In this document: one piece after another, positions 16,573-25,971 of the stretch | How positions within the stretch are numbered: position 1 is the first letter of the stretch | Layout of the letters: every line of letters begins with the position of its first letter | DNA from: an uncultured Rubrobacteraceae bacterium | GTDB taxonomy: Bacteria > Actinomycetota > Rubrobacteria > Rubrobacterales > Rubrobacteraceae | Reading direction: 5' to 3' | DNA: 46,005 nt | Assembly (NCBI GenBank): GCA_902805975.1 | Contig: CADCUT010000052.1 | Coordinates: 1 to 46,005, forward strand | Translations under genes and position numbers: made by a program | Notes under the pieces: generated by a model | What the model was told of the DNA's origin: nothing | Database searches by the model: none | What the model saw: only the letters and a program-made list of their open reading frames with translations

Positions 16573-17232
16573 CTACGCCGCCGGGTTCGTCGGCCGGATG
16601 GTTTCCTCTGCGATGGAGATGGCCGCCCCGGAGGGCCCTCGCTCGGCCCGGAGGCCGAAACCGAGGACGGCCCAGCCGAGGCCCGTGGCGACCACGGCCG
16701 CCATGATCGGGACGATTTCCTGCTGGAAACCCAACATGAACAGCGCGAAGAGCGCCACCGGCCCCGCCGCGGCGAGCAACGCGCCCATCTTCGGGAGCGA
16801 GCCCTTGCGGAGGAGGTCGACGCCGAAGATCGCCGAGCCCAGCGTGTACAGAAGTTGCGCCAGCGGGTGCGTCACGATGTCCAGGACCCCGAGCGTCGCC
16901 TCGTCGCCGACGGCCAGGCCGACGACGATGATGGTCAGGCCGCCTATCACCGAGAGCCCGAAGCCAGCAAGCGTCAGGAAGAAGCCGGCCTTGCCGATCC
17001 TGCCGACCTTCCCGGCCTGAGAGCGGTAGACCCCGAGCGCCCCGACGAACAGCAGCGCGAACGTCGCGACGTCGATAATGTGGATAAAGGCGTGCTCCCC
17101 GAAAAACGTGCCTTTGGCCTCATCGGCGAAGGCGAAGTAGATCAGGTACACAGCCACGAACGCGAGTACGTACATGACGCCGCCCAGAATCGACGCCGGC
17201 CCCCCGTAGCGCATCACTCTCTCACTGGTCAT
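16573..17232 (-). CDS. Six-helix membrane protein, family not recognised
   Basis: This 219-residue protein has about six hydrophobic segments, for example [59 protein letters not shown] and [12 protein letters not shown]. No catalytic motif is visible. It begins one base after the stop of the cupin gene, with an AGGAG sequence upstream, so the two are translationally coupled. The pair is divergent from the first STAND regulator, which may control it. Confidence 0.8.
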
Positions 17233-17233
17233 C

Positions 17234-17734
17234 TCAGAAACTCCTTTCGGTCAATCGTCTTGCCCCGCATATCTCGATGCCGTGCTCCGCCGCCAGAAGG
17301 GCGAACCCCGGGTCGGCCCGATCCGGGGGTTCGGCCGCGCCGGTCTTCAGCCCGCCGGCCGCCGCGAGGAAACTCTCCTGCGACCCTCCCGGCGTGTGGA
17401 CCACGAGCAGCCGGCCCGTCCCGCCGCCGACGTTCTCGTAGGCGTGCAGGGCGCCTTTGGGCAGGTAGAGGTGCGTCCCCGGGCCGGCCTCCGACGCGAC
17501 GCCCTCGACCACGAAGCCGAAGCGGCCCTCGGCCACGTAGAGGTACTCGTCCTCGCGGTGCTGGATGTGCGGTCCCTCGCCGCCACCCGTCTGGACCTCG
17601 ACCTCGAAGAGGGAATAGGCCCACCCGGTCCTCTCCGCGGTCACCTTGGTGGTCACCAGCCGGCCCCCCGGCATCGACACGGACCGTTCTTCCGCAGCCC
17701 CGAGGTTGTCGGCGCCAGGATCCTTCGTCTCCAT
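17234..17734 (-). CDS. Cupin-domain protein
   Basis: This 166-residue single-domain cupin has the first motif [25 protein letters not shown] near residues 54-78 and the second motif [13 protein letters not shown] near residue 92. The histidines and glutamate for metal binding are present. Cupins of this kind bind small molecules or act as isomerases or dioxygenases; the substrate is unknown. The start has an excellent AAAGGAGGTGAGAG Shine-Dalgarno. It is the first gene of a two-gene unit with the membrane protein. Confidence 0.88.
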
Positions 17735-17795
17735 CTCTCACCTCCTTTGCTCGCCTGTTTGCCTGCCACAACTGTGCCGTCCCGGACGGTGACGG

Positions 17796-17844
17796 AACAC
17801 CCACAGCGTCCACACACCGCTCCCCTGTGGAGGAAGCGTGTGGG
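17796..17844. promoter_or_regulatory. Operator-like element upstream of the first STAND regulator
   Basis: AACACCCACAG (17796-17806), a CCACACAC block and GCGTGTGGG (17836-17844) form inverted-repeat half sites (CCACA / TGTGG). The same AACACCCACAG and GCGTGTGGG occur in the same order before the second paralog. The element lies between the divergent cupin operon and the regulator and could control both. Confidence 0.5.
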
Positions 17845-17899: not shown

Positions 17900-17905
17900 T
17901 ATCCT
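17900..17905 (+). promoter_or_regulatory. -10 box of the first STAND regulator, predicted leaderless
   Basis: TATCCT is followed by CTTGGG and then ATG at 17912. The paralog at 23551 has TATGCT in the equivalent place, both preceded by TTGG or TTGGT. Confidence 0.55.
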
Positions 17906-17911
17906 CTTGGG

Positions 17912-20326
17912 ATGGTGGAACGGGCAACGGCGAAAGAATTCGAGCGCGGAGAGGCTTCTTCCTTCGGCGCCCTCTTGCGGAACTTTAGGACGGCGGCCGG
18001 GCTCACCCAGGAGGAGCTGGCCGGGAGGGCAGGCCTCTCCCCAAACGCCATAGGCGCCCTCGAGCGCGGGCAGAGGAGACGCCCCTACCCCCACACCGTG
18101 AGGGCGCTTGCGGATGGGCTGGGGCTCGGCGAGGAGGAGCGGGCCTCGCTGCTCGCCGCCGTCCCCGGGCGCGGCGAAGCAGCCCCGTCTCGCGGCGACG
18201 TCGCCGCGCCGCACGCCGCGGGGACCATCTCCACGCTGCCCCGTCCGGCCACCCCGCTCTTCGGGCGCGGGCGCGAACTCGACAGGATAGAGGACCTCAT
18301 CGCGCAGCCCGGCACCCGGCTGCTCACGCTCACGGGGGTAGGCGGGGTCGGCAAGACCCGCCTCGCCGTGGAGGCGGCGCGGGGGGCGGAGGGGAGGTTC
18401 GCGGACGGGACGGCGTTCGTCGGGTTGGCCCTGCTCGGGGACCCAGCCCTCGTCGTCCCGACCATCGCCCGGGCTCTGGGCCTCAGGGAGGCGGAGGGAC
18501 GGACGGCGCGCGGGGCCCTGGAAAGCCACCTGAAGACAAAGCGGCTGCTGCTCGTGCTCGACAACTTCGAGCACGTCCTCGGGGCGGCGCCCGAGGTGGC
18601 CGGCCTGATCGAAGCCTGCCCGGGCCTCACCGTGCTCGTCACCAGCCGCGCGCCGCTGGGCGTGAGGGGAGAGAGGGAGTACCCGGTACCCCCCCTAACC
18701 CTGCCTCCCAGTGGCCGGACCCCGACCGAAGGGGAGGTCATCGCTTCGCCCTCGGGACAGCTCTTTCTGGAGCGAGCCCTGGCGACCTCCCCCATGTTCG
18801 CCGTCACCGCGAGCAACGCGGGCGCCGTGGCCACGATCTGCCGGCGCCTCGCGGGCCTGCCGCTCGCCATAGAGCTCGCCGCCGCGAAGACCCGGTTCCT
18901 GGACCCCGCGGCGCTGCTCTCCCGCCTTGACCGGGCGCTCTCGACGAGGGGGGCGAGGGACCTGCCGGAGCGCCAGCGCACGATGCGGGCCACCCTGGAC
19001 TGGAGTTACGGGCTGCTCTCGGAGACGGAGAAGGCGCTGTTCGGGCGGCTCTCGGTCTTCGCGGGGGGCTTCACGCTCCCGGCGGCGGAAGGCGTGGGGG
19101 CTGACGAGGCCGGGCCGTTCGGCGCCGAGGACGTGCTAGACCTCGTGGGAAGCCTGGTCGAGCAGTCGCTGTTGACGGTGGAGACGAACCAGGGCGGCGA
19201 GGTCCGCTACGGCATGCTGGAGCCGGTAAGGCAGTACGCGCTGGAGAGGGCGGAAGAGGCCGGAGAGTCCGAAGGGGCGCGGCGGCGGCACGCCGCGTTC
19301 TTTCTCGCGCTGGCGGAACGCGCCGCCAAGGAGCTCAGGGGACCGGCGCAGGTCGGGTGGCTTGAGAGCCTCGAGCGGGAGAACGGCAACCTGCGCGCGG
19401 CGATGTACCGGGCCATATACGGGGACGTGGCCGACGGGGCCGAGGTCGCCGCCCGCCTCGGCTGGGCGCTGTGGGTGTTCTGGTGGCTTCGGGGCCACCA
19501 GGAGGAGGGTCGCAGCTCGATGGAGACGCTGCTGGAGGCCGACCCGCCCCTACACCTGCGGGCGAGGGTCGTTCAGGTCGCCAACGCCATGGCCTACACG
19601 CAAGGCGACTTCGAGGCGTGCGCTCGGTACTCGCGGGAGGCCCTGGAGCTCTCCCGGGCGGCCGGTGACGAGCTCTGCGAGGCCTACGCCCTGTGCGGCC
19701 TGGGCCTGGAGGCTATGGGCCTGGGCGACTTCGCGGAGGCGACGGCGCGCTTTGAGGGGGCGCTCCCGCTCTTTGTCCGCAACGGCGAGGAGGGGATGCT
19801 GCCGATAGCGCGCGTCTGGATGGGCATCGTGCTCCTCCTCCAGGGCGACCGCGACCGGGCGGTGGAGGCCTTCGAGGAGGGGCTGTCCCTGGCGCGCGAG
19901 AGGGGCGACAGGCTCGGCGCGTACAACGCGCTCTACAACCTGGCGCAGCTCGCCGCGGGCCGCGGAGATCACGGGCTCGCGACGCGCATGTTCGAAGAGG
20001 GCGTTGAGCTTTCGGAGGGGATGGGTGACCGGGCGAACCTGGCGCACTTCCTCGAAGGGCTCGCCGTCGTCGAGGGGATGCGGGGCGACCCGGCCCGCTC
20101 AGCGACCCTCTTCGGCGCGGCGCAGAGGCTCGCGAGCGAGGCCGGGGCCCCCGTCTACAACTACTACGTGCCCGCCCCCTCGCTGCGGGACGACGCCACC
20201 GCCGGGGTACGCTCGACCCTGGGCGACGACGCCTTCGAGGAGGCGCGCGAGGGCGGACGCGGGATGTCCTTCGAGCAGGCGGTCCGGTACGCGCTCCCGG
20301 ATGCCCGCGCGTCGGGGGGCGCGTAG
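17912..20326 (+). CDS. XRE-HTH / NB-ARC / TPR STAND transcriptional regulator, copy 1
   Basis: This 804-residue signal-transduction ATPase has an XRE-type helix-turn-helix at residues 16-80 ([24 protein letters not shown]). The NB-ARC ATPase follows at about 110-400, with Walker [10 protein letters not shown] near residue 142, Walker [11 protein letters not shown] near 210 and sensor TSRAPL. TPR-like helical repeats fill residues 480-790. STAND regulators are thought to switch on when ligand binding allows oligomerisation. No DNA-independent effector domain is present, which argues for transcription control rather than abortive defence. It is divergent from the cupin operon; a 185-base part of its HTH region is nearly identical to copy 2. 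Confidence 0.93.
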
Positions 20327-20441
20327 CGTCCCGGCCGCGAGATCGGCTTCCCGCGCCGCCCGGAGTGGCGGATCTCGTACGCCGGCGGGACACGGCAGAG
20401 GACGGCGCCTGTCCGCCCCCTGCCGCTTCGAGAGGCCCGTC

Positions 20442-22604
20442 CTACCCTCTTACCTTGAAGGACCAGGCCTTCGTGGCGGACGGGGAATGGCCGGCGAGGT
20501 CCTCAACCCCTGTCGTTACTGTGGCCGTGTACCTGGTCCCTGGCATGAGCTTTGCAGAGGGGTTCAGCGTCGCCTTACTGGTCGTCGCGTCGTAGGTCAC
20601 CGCCGCCGGCACGGCCCTCGTGGTGCCGCTCCTGACGAGCTTGACGGTCGTCCGGTTCACGGTGGCCTCGCCCATGACCTCCGAGAAGGTCGCCACCAGG
20701 TTCGCCCTGGGGGACACGCCCGTCGCGCGGTGCGCCGGGCTCACCCCGACGACGGAGGGCGCGACGGTATCCACCGTCACTTTCAGGGGGTCGGACTCGG
20801 GGGAGGTGTTGCCGGCGGCGTCGGTCGCCCTCGCGGTAAAGGTGTGCGTCCCGTCGGAGATGGCGGCGGCGAGCTCCGCGCGCCAGTCTCCGGACGGGCC
20901 GGCCGTGGCGGCGGCAACCGGGGAGTTGTTTCCGGCCTCGAAGAGTTCGACCTCGCTGCCCGGTTCGGCGGTGCCGGCAAAGGCCAGCCGGCCGTCGACG
21001 TCGTAGGAGCCGTCCGCCGGGGAGGTGATCACCGGCGGTCCGGGTGCTGTGGCATCCGCGACGACGACGGCCTCGGAGAACTCTGACGACCCGTCGAGCC
21101 CGGTCGCGGTCGCGGCCACGAAGTCGCCCGCGTGGGCGTCCGGGGTAACGAAGGAGAAGGCGGCGCGTCCGCTCCCGTCGGTGGTGACGACCCGCTCGCC
21201 CAGGAACGTCTCCCCCTCGCCGCGGCCCGAGGGGTCCTTCTCCGGGTTGGCGAAGAACTGGACGGTGAGCGAGGTGTTCGGGGCGCCGTCGAACGAGCCC
21301 TCTACCGTCGAGGCGCCGCCGGCGCGGGAGGCCGAGGCCAGCGTCGGGGAGTTCTGCAGGCCGTTGGGACCGGAGTCTGTGTCACCCGGGTCGTTGCCGG
21401 TCACCCCGGTCGCGCCGAGGTCGATCCCGAGGCCGCCGTTATCGCGGATGGAGTTGCCCAGGACGCGATTACCGGAAGCCGCGGAACCATACCCGGAGAC
21501 GTAGCAGGGATCCGCGACGACGGCGACGCCGGCCATCCTGTTGTGGGCGATGACGTTCCCCTCACCGGGGCCCGTCCCGCCCACGGTGTGGTCTTTGATG
21601 GAGCCGCAACGGCCGCTGAGGACCACACCGTTGCCGGAGTTGCCCAGAGGGCGGGTGCCGGTCACGTCGGTCCCGATAAAGTTGCCGCGCACGTAATTCT
21701 TCTCTATGCGTCCTCCGATTGTACCGTTATCGAACACGACGCCGTTGTCTCCGTTGCCGGAGATGACGTTGCGCGATTCGGGTGTGGTCCCGCCGATGAC
21801 GTTGGTGGTCCCGTAGCGGACGTGCACGCCGTGCCCCGAGTTCCCCAGGTCGGCGGTCCCGGTGGCATCGGTTCCGATAAAGTTGCCCTGCACCAGGTTC
21901 CCCGGGGTGCCGGTGTGTATCCAGACCGCCCCCCCTCCGCTGTTGTTGCCGGAGATCACGTTGCGGGCGGCGGGGGTCGTTCCGCCTATGGTATTGGGGG
22001 CGCCCCCCGAGTAGGTGTTCACGATCACGCCGCTGTAGCGGTTGCCGAGGTCGGCGGAGCCGGCAGCATCCGTGCCGATAAAGTTGCCCTCGACGGCGTG
22101 CCCGCCGTCGCCACCAAGATATATCCCGTAATCGGTAAAGCGGTTGATCACCATCCCCTTTACAGTGCTGTCGGTCGTGGAGATGTTCAGCCCGGAGACC
22201 CCACTCCCGGCGGCCGCGCCGTTTAGCTCGATCTTGAGCGCGGCGTTATCGCTCCGTCCGGGGCCGTTGGTGTTGGGGGTGGCCCCGGGCTGGCTGTAGC
22301 CGTCGATGGTCACGGGGTCTGTGATGGCCGGCAGGGCGGAGGCCGGCGAGATGGTCTTTACCCCTTCGCCGGGGATGGCGAACGAGATCCTATCCGCCCC
22401 GCTGCGGGCGTTGGCGTCGAGGATCGCCTGGCGCAGGGAGCCGGCCCCGCCGTCGCCCGTGTTCGTTACCCCGAAGTCGGCGGCGTGGACGGGCCTGGCG
22501 CCGAAGAGAAGTGACCCGCATACGAGCGCGAGCATCACCACCGTCCTCGCCTTCCCGTACGACCGCGTTACGCCTACCCGTGCCTTGTGTCCAACGTGCT
22601 TCAT
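20442..22604 (-). CDS. Secreted right-handed beta-helix protein with Ig-like and Big_5-like domains
   Basis: This 720-residue exported protein has a signal peptide at residues 1-41 (ending PVHA). A VTNTGDGGAGSLRQAILDAN segment typical of secreted beta-helix proteins follows. A parallel beta-helix spans about residues 60-420, with GNFIGTD-GTADLGN and NVIGGTTPESRNVISGN units repeating roughly every 55-60 residues. It ends with an Ig-like module (about 515-615) and an SbsA/Big_5-like domain (about 620-720). It is probably a surface or matrix protein; sugar binding or lyase activity is possible but no catalytic residues were identified. It converges with STAND copy 1 and has AGAGGAG before its ATG. 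Confidence 0.9.
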   Translation of the reverse strand: MKHVGHKARVGVTRSYGKARTVVMLALVCGSLLFGARPVHAADFGVTNTGDGGAGSLRQAILDANARSGADRISFAIPGEGVKTISPASALPAITDPVTIDGYSQPGATPNTNGPGRSDNAALKIELNGAAAGSGVSGLNISTTDSTVKGMVINRFTDYGIYLGGDGGHAVEGNFIGTDAAGSADLGNRYSGVIVNTYSGGAPNTIGGTTPAARNVISGNNSGGGAVWIHTGTPGNLVQGNFIGTDATGTADLGNSGHGVHVRYGTTNVIGGTTPESRNVISGNGDNGVVFDNGTIGGRIEKNYVRGNFIGTDVTGTRPLGNSGNGVVLSGRCGSIKDHTVGGTGPGEGNVIAHNRMAGVAVVADPCYVSGYGSAASGNRVLGNSIRDNGGLGIDLGATGVTGNDPGDTDSGPNGLQNSPTLASASRAGGASTVEGSFDGAPNTSLTVQFFANPEKDPSGRGEGETFLGERVVTTDGSGRAAFSFVTPDAHAGDFVAATATGLDGSSEFSEAVVVADATAPGPPVITSPADGSYDVDGRLAFAGTAEPGSEVELFEAGNNSPVAAATAGPSGDWRAELAAAISDGTHTFTARATDAAGNTSPESDPLKVTVDTVAPSVVGVSPAHRATGVSPRANLVATFSEVMGEATVNRTTVKLVRSGTTRAVPAAVTYDATTSKATLNPSAKLMPGTRYTATVTTGVEDLAGHSPSATKAWSFKVRG

Positions 22605-22641
22605 ACCTGCGGCTCCTCTCTTAGCTGCCTACCCGCCAATA

Positions 22642-22678
22642 CCGTGGGGGCGGGGATGCAAGGCCCCCGCCCCCACGG
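22642..22678 (-). terminator. Terminator hairpin after the RTX gene
   Basis: A perfect 14-base inverted repeat (CCGTGGGGGCGGGG and complement) with a 9-base loop lies just downstream of the RTX-protein stop and upstream of the beta-helix start. It should insulate the two same-strand genes. It lacks a U-tract. Confidence 0.65.
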
Positions 22679-22699
22679 TGGATGTCCGTGGTCCCGGCT

Positions 22700-23185
22700 C
22701 TACTTCACGAACCGCTCGCAGCCCGCGAAGCGGTCGAGGTCGGTGTCGGGTCCCTTCTTGACGGTGTCGGTGCCGCCGCCGCAGTCAACGATGTCGACCT
22801 CCCCGTCGCCGGCCGTGTGGAAGGTGTCGTTACCGGGGCCGCCGCCGAGCATGTCCTCGCCGCCCTCGCCGTAGAGCACGTCGTCGCCGCTCCCGCCGAA
22901 GAGCCGCCTCTCCTCCGCCCGGTCGTCACCGGCTCCGCCGCGTAGCGTGTCGTCGCCGGAGCCCCCATACAGGGCGTCGTGGCCGGCCCCCCCGAAGAGC
23001 CGGTCGTTGCCCCCGAGGCCGCTCAGGCGGTCGTCGCCACCGTTGCCCTCCAGCACGTCGGCCCTGGACGTCCCTTTAAGGGCGTTGTTACCGCCGTCGC
23101 CCACCTTCAGTGTCGCAAAGGCCGCGCCCGCGGAGAGGGCCAACATCAGCATCAACATCGCGGACATGATCGCTATCTTCCTCAT
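22700..23185 (-). CDS. Secreted RTX (hemolysin-type) calcium-binding protein
   Basis: This 161-residue protein has a signal peptide (MRKIAIMSAMLMLMLALSAGAAFA). At least six RTX nonapeptides of the form GGxGxDxLx follow between residues 30 and 125 (GGNDRLFGGAGHDALYGG). The C-terminal part has two cysteines (VDCGGGTD and GCERFVK) that may form a disulphide. RTX repeats fold into a calcium-loaded beta-roll outside the cell. ATG at 23185 was chosen because GAAGGAGAG lies upstream and the signal peptide starts there; reading from 23248 would add a charged, unlikely extension. It is divergent from STAND copy 2. Confidence 0.88.
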   Translation of the reverse strand: MRKIAIMSAMLMLMLALSAGAAFATLKVGDGGNNALKGTSRADVLEGNGGDDRLSGLGGNDRLFGGAGHDALYGGSGDDTLRGGAGDDRAEERRLFGGSGDDVLYGEGGEDMLGGGPGNDTFHTAGDGEVDIVDCGGGTDTVKKGPDTDLDRFAGCERFVK

Positions 23186-23449
23186 CACTTCTCTCCTTCT
23201 AGTTCGTTCTGTTGGGTTCTCTCGGTGCTTCTTGCTGTTCTTATCCAAGCGTTTCCCCTCGCGGCCGGAAGCCGACCGTTCCGGCGGCGGGTCCGGGATC
23301 CGGGCGTCGCCCCGTCCGGCCGGCGTTTATCTCCTGCGGCAAGCGCTCATTGCGCCCGCGTGCCGGGAAGATCTCGATGCTCGTGAACAATTTCTTCCTC
23401 CTCTCTGGGTGTCCCTGTGTGAAGAGTCTGCCGTCGCGGGCGACGGTCG

Positions 23450-23497
23450 AACACCCACAGCACCCACACGCTCGCCGGTGTGAAAGAGGCGTGTGGG
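23450..23497. promoter_or_regulatory. Operator-like element upstream of the second STAND regulator
   Basis: AACACCCACAG (23450-23460) is followed by a perfect 9-base inverted repeat, CCCACACGC (23463-23471) and GCGTGTGGG (23489-23497), 17 bases apart. The motif order matches that before STAND copy 1. It ends 53 bases before the predicted start and lies between the regulator and the divergent RTX gene. Confidence 0.55.
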
Positions 23498-23537
23498 CAG
23501 CGTGCAGATGCCCCGTGAGGAACCCGTGTTCGGTTGG

Positions 23538-23543
23538 TATGCT
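23538..23543 (+). promoter_or_regulatory. -10 box of the second STAND regulator, predicted leaderless
   Basis: TATGCT is followed by CTCCCCC and then GTG at 23551. It aligns with TATCCT of the paralog. The in-frame ATG at 23539 overlaps this box and is therefore not preferred. Confidence 0.5.
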
Positions 23544-23550
23544 CTCCCCC

Positions 23551-25971
23551 GTGGAGAGGCGAGAGTTCGAAAAAGAGACCTCCGGGGCGTTCGCCCGGCG
23601 CTTGCGGGACTTCAGGACGGCGGCCGGGCTTACCCAGGAGGAGCTGGCCGGGAGGGCAGGCCTCTCCCCAAACGCCATAGGCGCCCTCGAGCGCGGGCAG
23701 AGGAGACGCCCCTACCCCCACACCGTGAGGGCGCTTGCGGATGGGCTGGGGCTCGGCGAGGAGGAGCGGGCCTCGTTGCTCGCCACCGTCCCCGGGCGGC
23801 CTGAGGCCGCCACGCGGGTCCCGGAAGGTTCTCCGGCGGCCGACCCGCCGGCCGCGTCACCGGCCGCGTCACCGGCGGCGCTGCCGTACCCGGCGACGTC
23901 GCTCGTTGGGCGTGGGCGGGAGCTCGGGGAGGTCGCGGGCCTGCTGGCGCAGCCCGAGGTGCGGCTCCTCACGCTCACCGGCACCGGCGGGGTCGGCAAG
24001 ACCCGTCTCGCCGTGGAGTCGGCGCGGGACTCGCTGGCTTCCGGGCTCTTCCCGGACGGCGTCGCCTTCGTCGGTCTCGCCCCGATCGAAGACCCGGCGC
24101 TCGTGGCCCAGGCGGTACTCGGTTCGCTCGGCGCGGCCATACCGGACGGCCTGACCCCGTACGAGGCACTCGCCGGGCACCTGAGGGAGAAGGAATTCCT
24201 GCTCGTCCTGGATAATCTGGAGCACCTGCTGGCGGCGGCGCCGGAGCTTGCGGGGTTGGTAGAGGTCTGCCCGGGCCTGACGGTGCTGACCACCAGCCGG
24301 GCCCCGTTGAGGGTGCGGGGGGAGATCGAGTACCCCGTCCCGCCGCTCGCGCTGCCGCCCACGACCCGCTCGCCCTCCGAGGAGGAGGTCACGGGCTCCC
24401 CCGCAGGCACCCTCTTTGTCGAGCGGGCGCGGGCGACCTCGGCCGGGTTCGGCCTGACGCGCCAGAACGCGGCGGACGTGGCGGCGATCTGCTGGAGGCT
24501 GGCGGGGCTGCCGCTGGCGCTGGAGCTTGCGGCGGCGAAGACGAAGTTCCTCGACCCCGCCACGTTGCTCTCGCGCCTGGACCGGGCACTCTCGACCACC
24601 TGGGGGCGCGATCTGCCGGAGAGACAGCGCACGATGCGGGCGACGCTGGACTGGAGCTTCGGGCTGCTCGGCGAACCGGAGAGGCGGCTGCTCGGACGCC
24701 TCTCCGTGTTCGTCGGCGGCTTCTCGCTTCCGGCGGCCGAGGCCGTGGGGTCCGACGCGGCGGGAGACGTCGACGCCGAGGCGGTGATCGAACACCTCGG
24801 TACCCTGGTGGAGCAGTCGCTGGTGACGGTTGACCCGAACGGGGGCGATGATGGTACCCGCTTCGGGATGCTCGAGCCGGTTAGACAATACGCCCTGGAG
24901 AAGCTGGTCGAGGGCGGCGAGGAAGGGGAGACGCGCGGGCGGCACGCGGCCTACTACCTAGCCGTGGCCGAGCGGGCGGGCGTGGAGCTCTGGGGCCCCG
25001 GCCAGGGGGCGTGGCTGGAGAAGCTCGAGCGCGAGAACGGCAACCTGCGCGCCGCCCTCGCGTGGACGATCGATTCGGAGGCGGAGACCGCGGGGAGGTT
25101 CTGCTACGCCCTGTGGCTCTTCTGGTGGGCCCGCGGCCACCACCGGGAGGGTCGCCGGTGGTGCGAGGTGGCGCTCGGGCGCGACCTTCCGCCCGCCTGG
25201 CGCGCCAGGGTGCTATCCGTCGCCGCGGGGATGTTCTACGCGGCCAACGACCATGACCCGGCTGAGGAGCGCTGGAGCGAGGGCCTCTCCGTCTCCCTGG
25301 AAGAAGGCGATAAGGTCGTCGAGGGTCTTTGCACGGCGGGCCTGGGGCTCGCCAGGTTGGCCCGTGGGGACCACGAAGCGGCGGCGGCGCGATTCGGCGA
25401 GGCCCTGCCGCTTCTGGAAGAGTGTGGAGACCCGGTCTCCTCGCTGGCACGCGTGTGGCTCGGGACGACCTCCCTTCTCCGCGGCGACGCCGCGCGGGCC
25501 GAGCGGGAGATCGAGGAGGGGTTGAGCTCGGCCCGGTCCCGCGGGGACACTCTTTGCACCTACGTGGGGCTCTACAACCTGGCCCAGCTGGCGATCTCAC
25601 GCGGCGACCTAGGGCTCGCGGGGGGCCTGCTGGAGGAGGGCGTGGGGCTCTCCGGACACACCAGGGACCGGGCGAACCTCGCGCACTTCCTGGACGCGCT
25701 CTCTGCGGTCGCCGCGCTGCGCGGGGAGCCGGAGCACTCGGCGGTCTTGATCGGCGCGGCCGAGGAGTCCCTCCGGGAGGTGGGCGCCCCCGTCTATAAC
25801 TTCTACGCCCCGGACCCGTCCCTGAAAGTACGCGCCTCCTCGGAGGCCCGCGCCTCTTTGGGCGACGCGGCGTTCGAGGAGTTGCGCGAGCAGGGACGGG
25901 CCATGACCTTTGAGGACGCGGTCACCCTAGGAGCGGGTACCGACGCGAACGGCCCCACTGCGGCCCTGTAA
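23551..25971 (+). CDS. XRE-HTH / NB-ARC / TPR STAND transcriptional regulator, copy 2
   Basis: This 806-residue paralog of the gene at 17912 has the same layout. An XRE HTH lies at residues 12-76, NB-ARC follows with Walker A GTGGVGKTR, Walker B LLVLDNLEH and TTSRAPL, and a TPR-type region ends in the shared APVYNFYAPDPSLK block. Residues 22-83 are encoded by DNA almost identical to copy 1, while the ATPase and TPR parts have diverged considerably. An Ala/Pro-rich linker (PAASPAASPAALP) separates HTH and ATPase. It is divergent from the RTX gene, which is its most likely neighbour target besides itself. Confidence 0.93.
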   Translation: MERREFEKETSGAFARRLRDFRTAAGLTQEELAGRAGLSPNAIGALERGQRRRPYPHTVRALADGLGLGEEERASLLATVPGRPEAATRVPEGSPAADPPAASPAASPAALPYPATSLVGRGRELGEVAGLLAQPEVRLLTLTGTGGVGKTRLAVESARDSLASGLFPDGVAFVGLAPIEDPALVAQAVLGSLGAAIPDGLTPYEALAGHLREKEFLLVLDNLEHLLAAAPELAGLVEVCPGLTVLTTSRAPLRVRGEIEYPVPPLALPPTTRSPSEEEVTGSPAGTLFVERARATSAGFGLTRQNAADVAAICWRLAGLPLALELAAAKTKFLDPATLLSRLDRALSTTWGRDLPERQRTMRATLDWSFGLLGEPERRLLGRLSVFVGGFSLPAAEAVGSDAAGDVDAEAVIEHLGTLVEQSLVTVDPNGGDDGTRFGMLEPVRQYALEKLVEGGEEGETRGRHAAYYLAVAERAGVELWGPGQGAWLEKLERENGNLRAALAWTIDSEAETAGRFCYALWLFWWARGHHREGRRWCEVALGRDLPPAWRARVLSVAAGMFYAANDHDPAEERWSEGLSVSLEEGDKVVEGLCTAGLGLARLARGDHEAAAARFGEALPLLEECGDPVSSLARVWLGTTSLLRGDAARAEREIEEGLSSARSRGDTLCTYVGLYNLAQLAISRGDLGLAGGLLEEGVGLSGHTRDRANLAHFLDALSAVAALRGEPEHSAVLIGAAEESLREVGAPVYNFYAPDPSLKVRASSEARASLGDAAFEELREQGRAMTFEDAVTLGAGTDANGPTAAL

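Follow-up and report, generated by a model that had tools for sequence, protein, structure and literature searches.

In the window, by which we mean the whole analysed stretch of 46,005 nucleotides from an uncultured Rubrobacteraceae bacterium (contig CADCUT010000052.1), two neighbouring, old paralogous regulator genes, here called A and B, carry nearly identical segments coding for a helix-turn-helix (HTH) domain. We consider it likely that these segments were repeatedly overwritten by ectopic gene conversion, and that shared regulatory wiring probably helps to retain the converted copies. As judged from the sequence comparisons given below, the case for recurrent gene conversion in the HTH segment is well supported.

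Two diverged regulators with a common HTH segment

Gene A (17912 to 20326, forward strand) starts with ATG and encodes 804 amino acids; its paralog, gene B (23551 to 25971, forward strand), starts with GTG and encodes 806. The homogenised HTH segments (17987 to 18171 in A and 23614 to 23798 in B, both on the forward strand) are alike in 182 of 185 bases, with mismatches only at 18004, 18149, and 18158. Read in frame, the segment comprises 61 aligned codons with 98.4% nucleotide identity, and 58 of the 60 shared residues use the same codon. Outside the segment, 734 aligned codons show 58% amino-acid identity, 66% nucleotide identity, and 55% same-codon use; in the per-codon comparison, identity drops immediately at both segment edges. 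The excess of same codons in the segment over the ATPase part has a Fisher p of 8e-11 (7e-8 corrected over 818 pairs), in a test that treats codons as independent. The original prediction of a 185-base near-identity between two genes with diverged ATPase and TPR flanks is thereby confirmed. The search for further genes sharing the segment, which it had proposed, gave eight matches in the same genome; among the 40 of 183 first-look candidates that were scored, the best copy after A and B reached 81%.

The segment corresponds, with a slight overhang, to the HTH_31 domain (PF13560), which spans residues 18-80 in A and 13-76 in B. Gene A matches HTH_31, NB-ARC, and TPR_12 above the Pfam cut-offs. 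In gene B, HTH_31 is above its cut-off, NB-ARC is just below (23.1 bits, compared to 26.7 in A and a cut-off of 23.5), and TPR_12 is below as well (24.5 bits, compared to 45.2 in A and a cut-off of 30.1). TPR_MalT matches both proteins below cut-off. In an alignment of 35 sequences, the Walker A residues G133, G136, G138, K139, and R141 are invariant and T140 is nearly so. The A/B family therefore has the NB-ARC/NOD-type ATPase with Walker A motif that characterizes STAND proteins, together with a C-terminal repeat sensor, and its profile matches AfsR and MalT chains. The OmpR-type DNA-binding and BTA domains of a SARP such as AfsR were not found: the N-terminus is HTH_31, and the Pfam families listed for A and B include neither a SARP nor a BTA match. 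The NCBIfam AfsR model scored 65/1430 bits on A, far under its cut-off, and PADLOC matches to the family fell in the HTH region or the TPR only. A and B are AfsR-like STAND regulators with an XRE-type HTH.

The window's genome, placed in the Rubrobacteraceae by its nearest named relatives, contains nine further loci with long matches to the STAND family, some of which are without the HTH. In a search of the genus at E 1e-30, the regulator family was present in eight of nine genomes. Between A and B, on the reverse strand (20442 to 22604), a 720-amino-acid surface-type protein with Big_13/Big_5 Ig-like domains and 201-base internal repeats is encoded; a beta-helix match to this protein was below cut-off.

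Concerted evolution within genomes

In the following, G000 is the window's genome, with genes A0 and B0; A3 and B3 are from G003, and A4 and B4 from G004. G004 is a congener whose locus lies on contig 412 of AVDCRST_MAG01; it carries orthologs of A and B in the same order and with similar spacing. A 725-amino-acid ORF occupies a position like that of the window's surface-type protein (judged by place, unaligned).

Paralogs are closer within a genome than orthologs between genomes in the segment only. The segment identities are 182/185 for A0-B0 and 177/185 for A4-B4, compared to 164/185 for A0-A4 and 161/185 for B0-B4. In contrast, the ATPase and winged helix give 0.857 for A0-A4 and 0.942 for B0-B4 versus 0.712 for A0-B0, and the TPR part gives 0.838 and 0.910 versus 0.591. 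Quartet site patterns inside the segment comprise 17 concerted sites, no orthologous site, and one reversed site; outside, the counts are 6, 445, and 6, respectively, and two of these six concerted sites sit just ahead of the segment. The longest concerted run has 19 consecutive sites, whereas shuffles reached at most five (0 of 20,000 matched 19). This run, from 17983 to 18138, lies between orthologous sites at 17973 and 18173. At the 17 concerted sites, A0 equals B0 and A4 equals B4 while the genomes differ; the segment was thus homogenised in each lineage after the split.

The tract borders are sharp, and the phylogenies on their two sides conflict. In the HTH tree, A0 groups with B0 (support 99/97) and A4 with B4 (99/92), and the HTH data reject the clades A0+A4 (p 0.005) and B0+B4 (p 0.004). 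In the body tree, A0+A4 and B0+B4 are each supported at 100, and the body data reject both A0+B0 (p 2e-52) and all four sequences as a single clade (p 1e-4). The trees comprised 30 rows for the HTH, 29 for the body, and 30 for a third tree set, with distant or fragmentary genes omitted by hand. Because the body tree separates A from B and the HTH tree joins them, the homogenisation after the split in both lineages appears to have come on top of an older one. The HTH tree groups A and B with B3 and the regulator on contig C87 of the window's genome rather than with A3 (94/82, an open fork); this is a weak hint that the original transfer, beneath the later events, may have run from B to A.

To determine how general the pattern is, all pairs among 45 genes were compared. 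Of these 990 pairs, 172 were dropped for having fewer than 35 HTH or fewer than 100 other aligned codons, which left 818 usable pairs. Three passed correction: the A/B pairs of G000 and G004, and a pair on contig C77 of G005. All three belong to the eight pairs located within one fetched locus; none of the 84 other same-genome pairs (some of which share a contig, but lie further apart) and none of the 726 pairs between genomes passed. The G005 pair uses the same codons at 39/42 positions in the HTH versus 110/180 elsewhere. Its 101 identical aligned bases begin near the contig start and decay at the VPK codons; the contig starts inside the HTH, and the left tract border falls past its end. The other five same-locus pairs showed no same-codon excess. 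Three of them are from G003, where A3-B3 is not homogenised (139/185) and where A3 has neither visible 11-bp upstream repeats nor a clear divergent target.

Two further candidates were rejected, and one was a duplicate. In the case of MAG37, the pairing is rejected by the body tree (p 0.008), the HTH data are compatible with the alternative (p 0.20), and the codon excess fails correction. A pair on contig C66 of G002 (locus L219) is nearly identical from inside the HTH onward and is a case of whole-gene conversion or duplication instead of an HTH-limited one. These two tandem STAND genes remain nearly identical as far as they were compared, and likewise in the -10/start region; upstream, and between the near-identical parts, they are diverged. 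Locus L119 is the same contig, as its length and sequence show.

Several processes other than recurrent conversion could bring about such near-identity. Purifying selection on the DNA of the segment, through an overlapping gene, an RNA, or codon constraint, would agree with the high A-B identity at synonymous sites; we regard it as extremely improbable. Orthologs share codons at 42/59 (A0-A4) and 40/57 (B0-B4) positions within the segment versus 438/580 and 572/662 downstream of it. They thus differ at synonymous sites in the segment at least as much as elsewhere, which refutes silent-site constraint. Synonymous conservation between orthologs was one of two patterns that the original prediction had named as evidence against it; the other, equal identity along the whole gene in relatives, was likewise not seen, as segment and body differ. 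One recent domain swap in the lineage of the window, which had been put forward as an alternative to conversion, would fit the identity in G000 taken alone. The concerted sites contradict it: G004 is homogenised with its own sequence at the 17 sites, which requires a separate event in each of the two lineages once they had diverged, and in G005 a different neighbouring pair is homogenised. A single swap is therefore highly unlikely, and of the two processes originally proposed, the comparisons support gene conversion confined to the DNA-binding segment.

Collapse of near-identical repeats by a metagenome assembler has somewhat more in its favour, and we still consider it quite unlikely as the cause. 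G003, G004, and G005 are metagenome assemblies, and G000 is a draft in 238 contigs; the 144 bases between 18004 and 18149 are identical in G000, as a collapse would look, and the identical stretch in G005 begins with a contig that opens inside the HTH. Collapse could therefore exaggerate the identity in G000 and G005. However, A4 and B4 keep eight differences, three in the core and five in 18149-18163, a distribution that argues less than fully against collapse. The A4-B4 identity exceeds that of both ortholog pairs whichever G000 copy is the true one, and separate genomes give the same right tract border. Since it retains eight differences, the G004 pair does not look collapsed, and this pair alone suffices for the conclusion of conversion.

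Operators, promoters, and candidate targets

A candidate operator of A (17795 to 17844) consists of CCCAC-type repeats spaced by 11 bp with an inverted copy; a candidate operator of the same type precedes B (23449 to 23497). Across the upstream regions of 38 genes, 158 near-matches of 7 bases were counted at spacing 11, compared to 11.9 in dinucleotide shuffles and 12 in coding controls; 25 of the 38 genes have such a near-match. The z value of 31 overstates the evidence, since these regions are not independent but related. At spacing 22 there were 39 near-matches versus 5 in coding controls. Spacings 6, 9, and 12 also exceeded the shuffles (44, 69, and 44), yet coding controls did likewise (39, 52, and 58). 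By eye, a -10-like TATCCT (TTGGTATCCT; 17900 to 17905, forward strand) lies six bases ahead of the A start, and a -10-like TATGCT (23538 to 23543, forward strand) seven bases ahead of the B start. Elements like the former are present, also by eye, in many upstream regions of the family. As the starts of A, B, and the C87 regulator follow such an element by 6 to 7 bases, their transcripts are probably leaderless.

The repeats sit between the regulator promoter and a divergent gene, which encodes a cupin protein for A and an RTX-repeat protein for B. The cupin gene (17234 to 17734, reverse strand) is a probable target by its Cupin_2 match and its position; the protein gene directly behind it (16573 to 17232, reverse strand), for which no family was found, is a possible one. 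The small, secreted-looking RTX-repeat protein (22700 to 23185, reverse strand; HemolysinCabind match, start chosen by eye) is the probable target of B. At other loci, the divergent genes are RTX, cupin-like, acetyltransferase-like, or other genes, as judged by eye. A small ORF (LFTSIEI...; 23241 to 23390, reverse strand) lies between operator B and the RTX gene. ORFs of this kind, which begin with LFT or MFT (MFTSIEIS, MFTELDLS, MFTALDHT, MFTGMESL), directly follow the operator on its target side in the window and in loci L089, L090, L094, and L235, and perhaps represent a conserved small protein or leader peptide; the MFT-type start occurs in relatives as well. In L089 of G004, the RTX gene beside the B ortholog seems, by eye, mostly deleted, and an RTX-like tail (DLDSFANCERFVR) is found at the end of the MFTSIEIS ORF.

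The pattern CCACAC-N(4-30)-GTGTGGG, derived from A and B, occurs at seven loci of the genome and not at all in the reversed control. A looser search returned 48 sites at up to three mismatches versus 37 in the control; meaning can thus be attached to the best matches only. Besides A, B, and C87, the seven loci are C120, C144, C22:44203, and C113. The C144 site (C144:27232-27266; L234, about 2233-2267) is an A/B-type operator with 11-bp repeats in both arms before an RTX gene, a candidate target in trans; contig C144 gave no STAND match. The C22 match, which is 2.4 kb away from the contig's regulator, precedes a small MFT-type ORF and a gene for an FAD oxidoreductase; the C113 match falls within a long ORF. 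The control regions of C87 and C120, both paralogs in the window's genome (L091, L092), are 0.72-1.00 identical from -322 to +71, versus 0.35-0.60 before and 0.57-0.80 after. This stretch covers the start of the divergent gene, the operator, and the HTH start. From the comparison of these two paralogs, it may possibly be another conversion tract, with the operator at its centre. In L095, the C24 regulator has a different operator-like array of three 11-bp units resembling CTCATGCGCTG, and its recognition helix differs (SPNAISDLERGRRRH).

The original prediction also held that conversion keeps both regulators on the same operator. This half is backed in part only: the upstream repeats of A and B are indeed of one type, but the Mantel tests, a crude approach, speak against a link beyond descent, and the A-B pair comes only 63rd of 703 when upstream regions are compared over their whole length. 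The partial Mantel correlation of operator with HTH given ATPase is 0.111 (93/2000 permutations, not significant) and that of operator with recognition helix 0.086 (142/2000, not significant), whereas operator with ATPase given HTH yields 0.267 (0/2000, significant). Matching of operator to HTH and common descent are not separable in these data. Comparing a recognition-helix residue (K/R or other) with operator base 3 (T or C) gives agreement in 19 of 20 genes, which proves nothing, because only two to three changes on the tree underlie the agreement; the operators compared were those that best fitted two templates, base 3 was picked with the data in view, and ten of the 30 tree genes were omitted (nine without a listed operator, one with neither C nor T at base 3). 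In G004, the operator region of A4 lies past the contig end.

Mechanism and relation to known systems

The mechanism that we propose starts from A and B as old paralogs in an AfsR-like STAND family with many members in the Rubrobacteraceae. As the sequence comparisons show, ectopic conversion between the neighbouring genes repeatedly overwrites the HTH-coding segments and no other part. Conversion would be possible only where A and B have remained similar enough; at the N-terminus, in the linker, and in the ATPase/TPR part, divergence would be too great, which would place the tract edges at the domain edges and let the island of identity renew itself. By analogy to AfsR, A and B probably both act as activators that form oligomers upon binding of ATP and ligand, and each would bind the 11-bp-spaced repeats between its own leaderless promoter and the divergent target. 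Given their common HTH and operator type, the sensors of A and B could each control the cupin as well as the RTX target set, and selection for this shared wiring probably helps to retain conversions. That selection for one operator drives conversion is plausible. A stronger version would have the HTH act as a locally shared specificity cassette, recopied by neighbours, so that several diverging sensors are held on one operator set and a multi-input gate is maintained by recombination and not by point selection; for us this idea is close to evenly balanced, with the scale tipping slightly against it.

Conversion could also be entirely neutral, with the HTH as the sole stretch conserved enough to pair and homogenisation having no regulatory role. 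This is a serious possibility, although we lean away from it. The tract borders coincide with borders of alignability (a variable N-terminus, and a variable linker after 18172), the affected pairs are all from the same locus, and in the partial Mantel tests the operator follows the ATPase and not the HTH. Against it, a conserved Walker A stretch (18299-18386) with about 0.8 nucleotide identity is not homogenised, and in one case, G003, the unhomogenised A3 is also the gene that lacks upstream repeats and a clear divergent target, a coincidence that a link between homogenisation and operator would predict.

The usual expectation for paralogous regulators is that their DNA-binding parts drift apart, which avoids crosstalk. 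Here, recombination would reverse the divergence in DNA binding while the sensing part moves on; if true, this is a simple route for wiring several signals to one gene set. The homogenised pairs in three genomes and the unhomogenised pair in a fourth make the idea testable in vitro.

Among solved structures, AfsR (a large SARP of the STAND family; PDB 8k60, 8jke) best matches the ATPase and TPR parts together, although some TPR-only chains score higher; its NOD ATPase and TPR can be aligned to the A/B family (profile positions 49-718, E 2e-30). The DNA-binding parts differ, OmpR-type SARP plus BTA in AfsR versus the XRE-like HTH_31 in A and B. In MalT, the DNA-binding domain is C-terminal and of the LuxR type, which is also different from A and B. 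According to PMC10936776, MalT of E. coli is a STAND transcription activator, as A and B would be, the binding sites of AfsR are direct repeats of 11 bp, and the afs box overlaps with the -35 element. The A/B operator type, in contrast, includes an inverted copy, and for A it is located 68-117 bases ahead of the start.

Domain-limited conversion between paralogs is already known from domain 3 of RF1/RF2, for which PMC4530459 describes two independent cases between old paralogs. A and B differ in being neighbouring regulator genes, in that the affected domain confers DNA specificity, and in the recurrence within one bacterial family. HTH-limited recurrent conversion of neighbouring bacterial regulators was not found in the literature searched, in which subscription journals were thinly covered. 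The tufA and tufB genes of Salmonella likewise undergo intrachromosomal conversion between duplicates; according to PMC5485169, this concerns whole, near-identical genes, whereas in A and B it concerns one domain of genes that are 66% identical elsewhere. In Type I restriction specificity subunits, a DNA-recognition segment recombines as well; according to PMC3077401, that segment moves to a new position and diversifies, whereas the A/B segment keeps two proteins alike.
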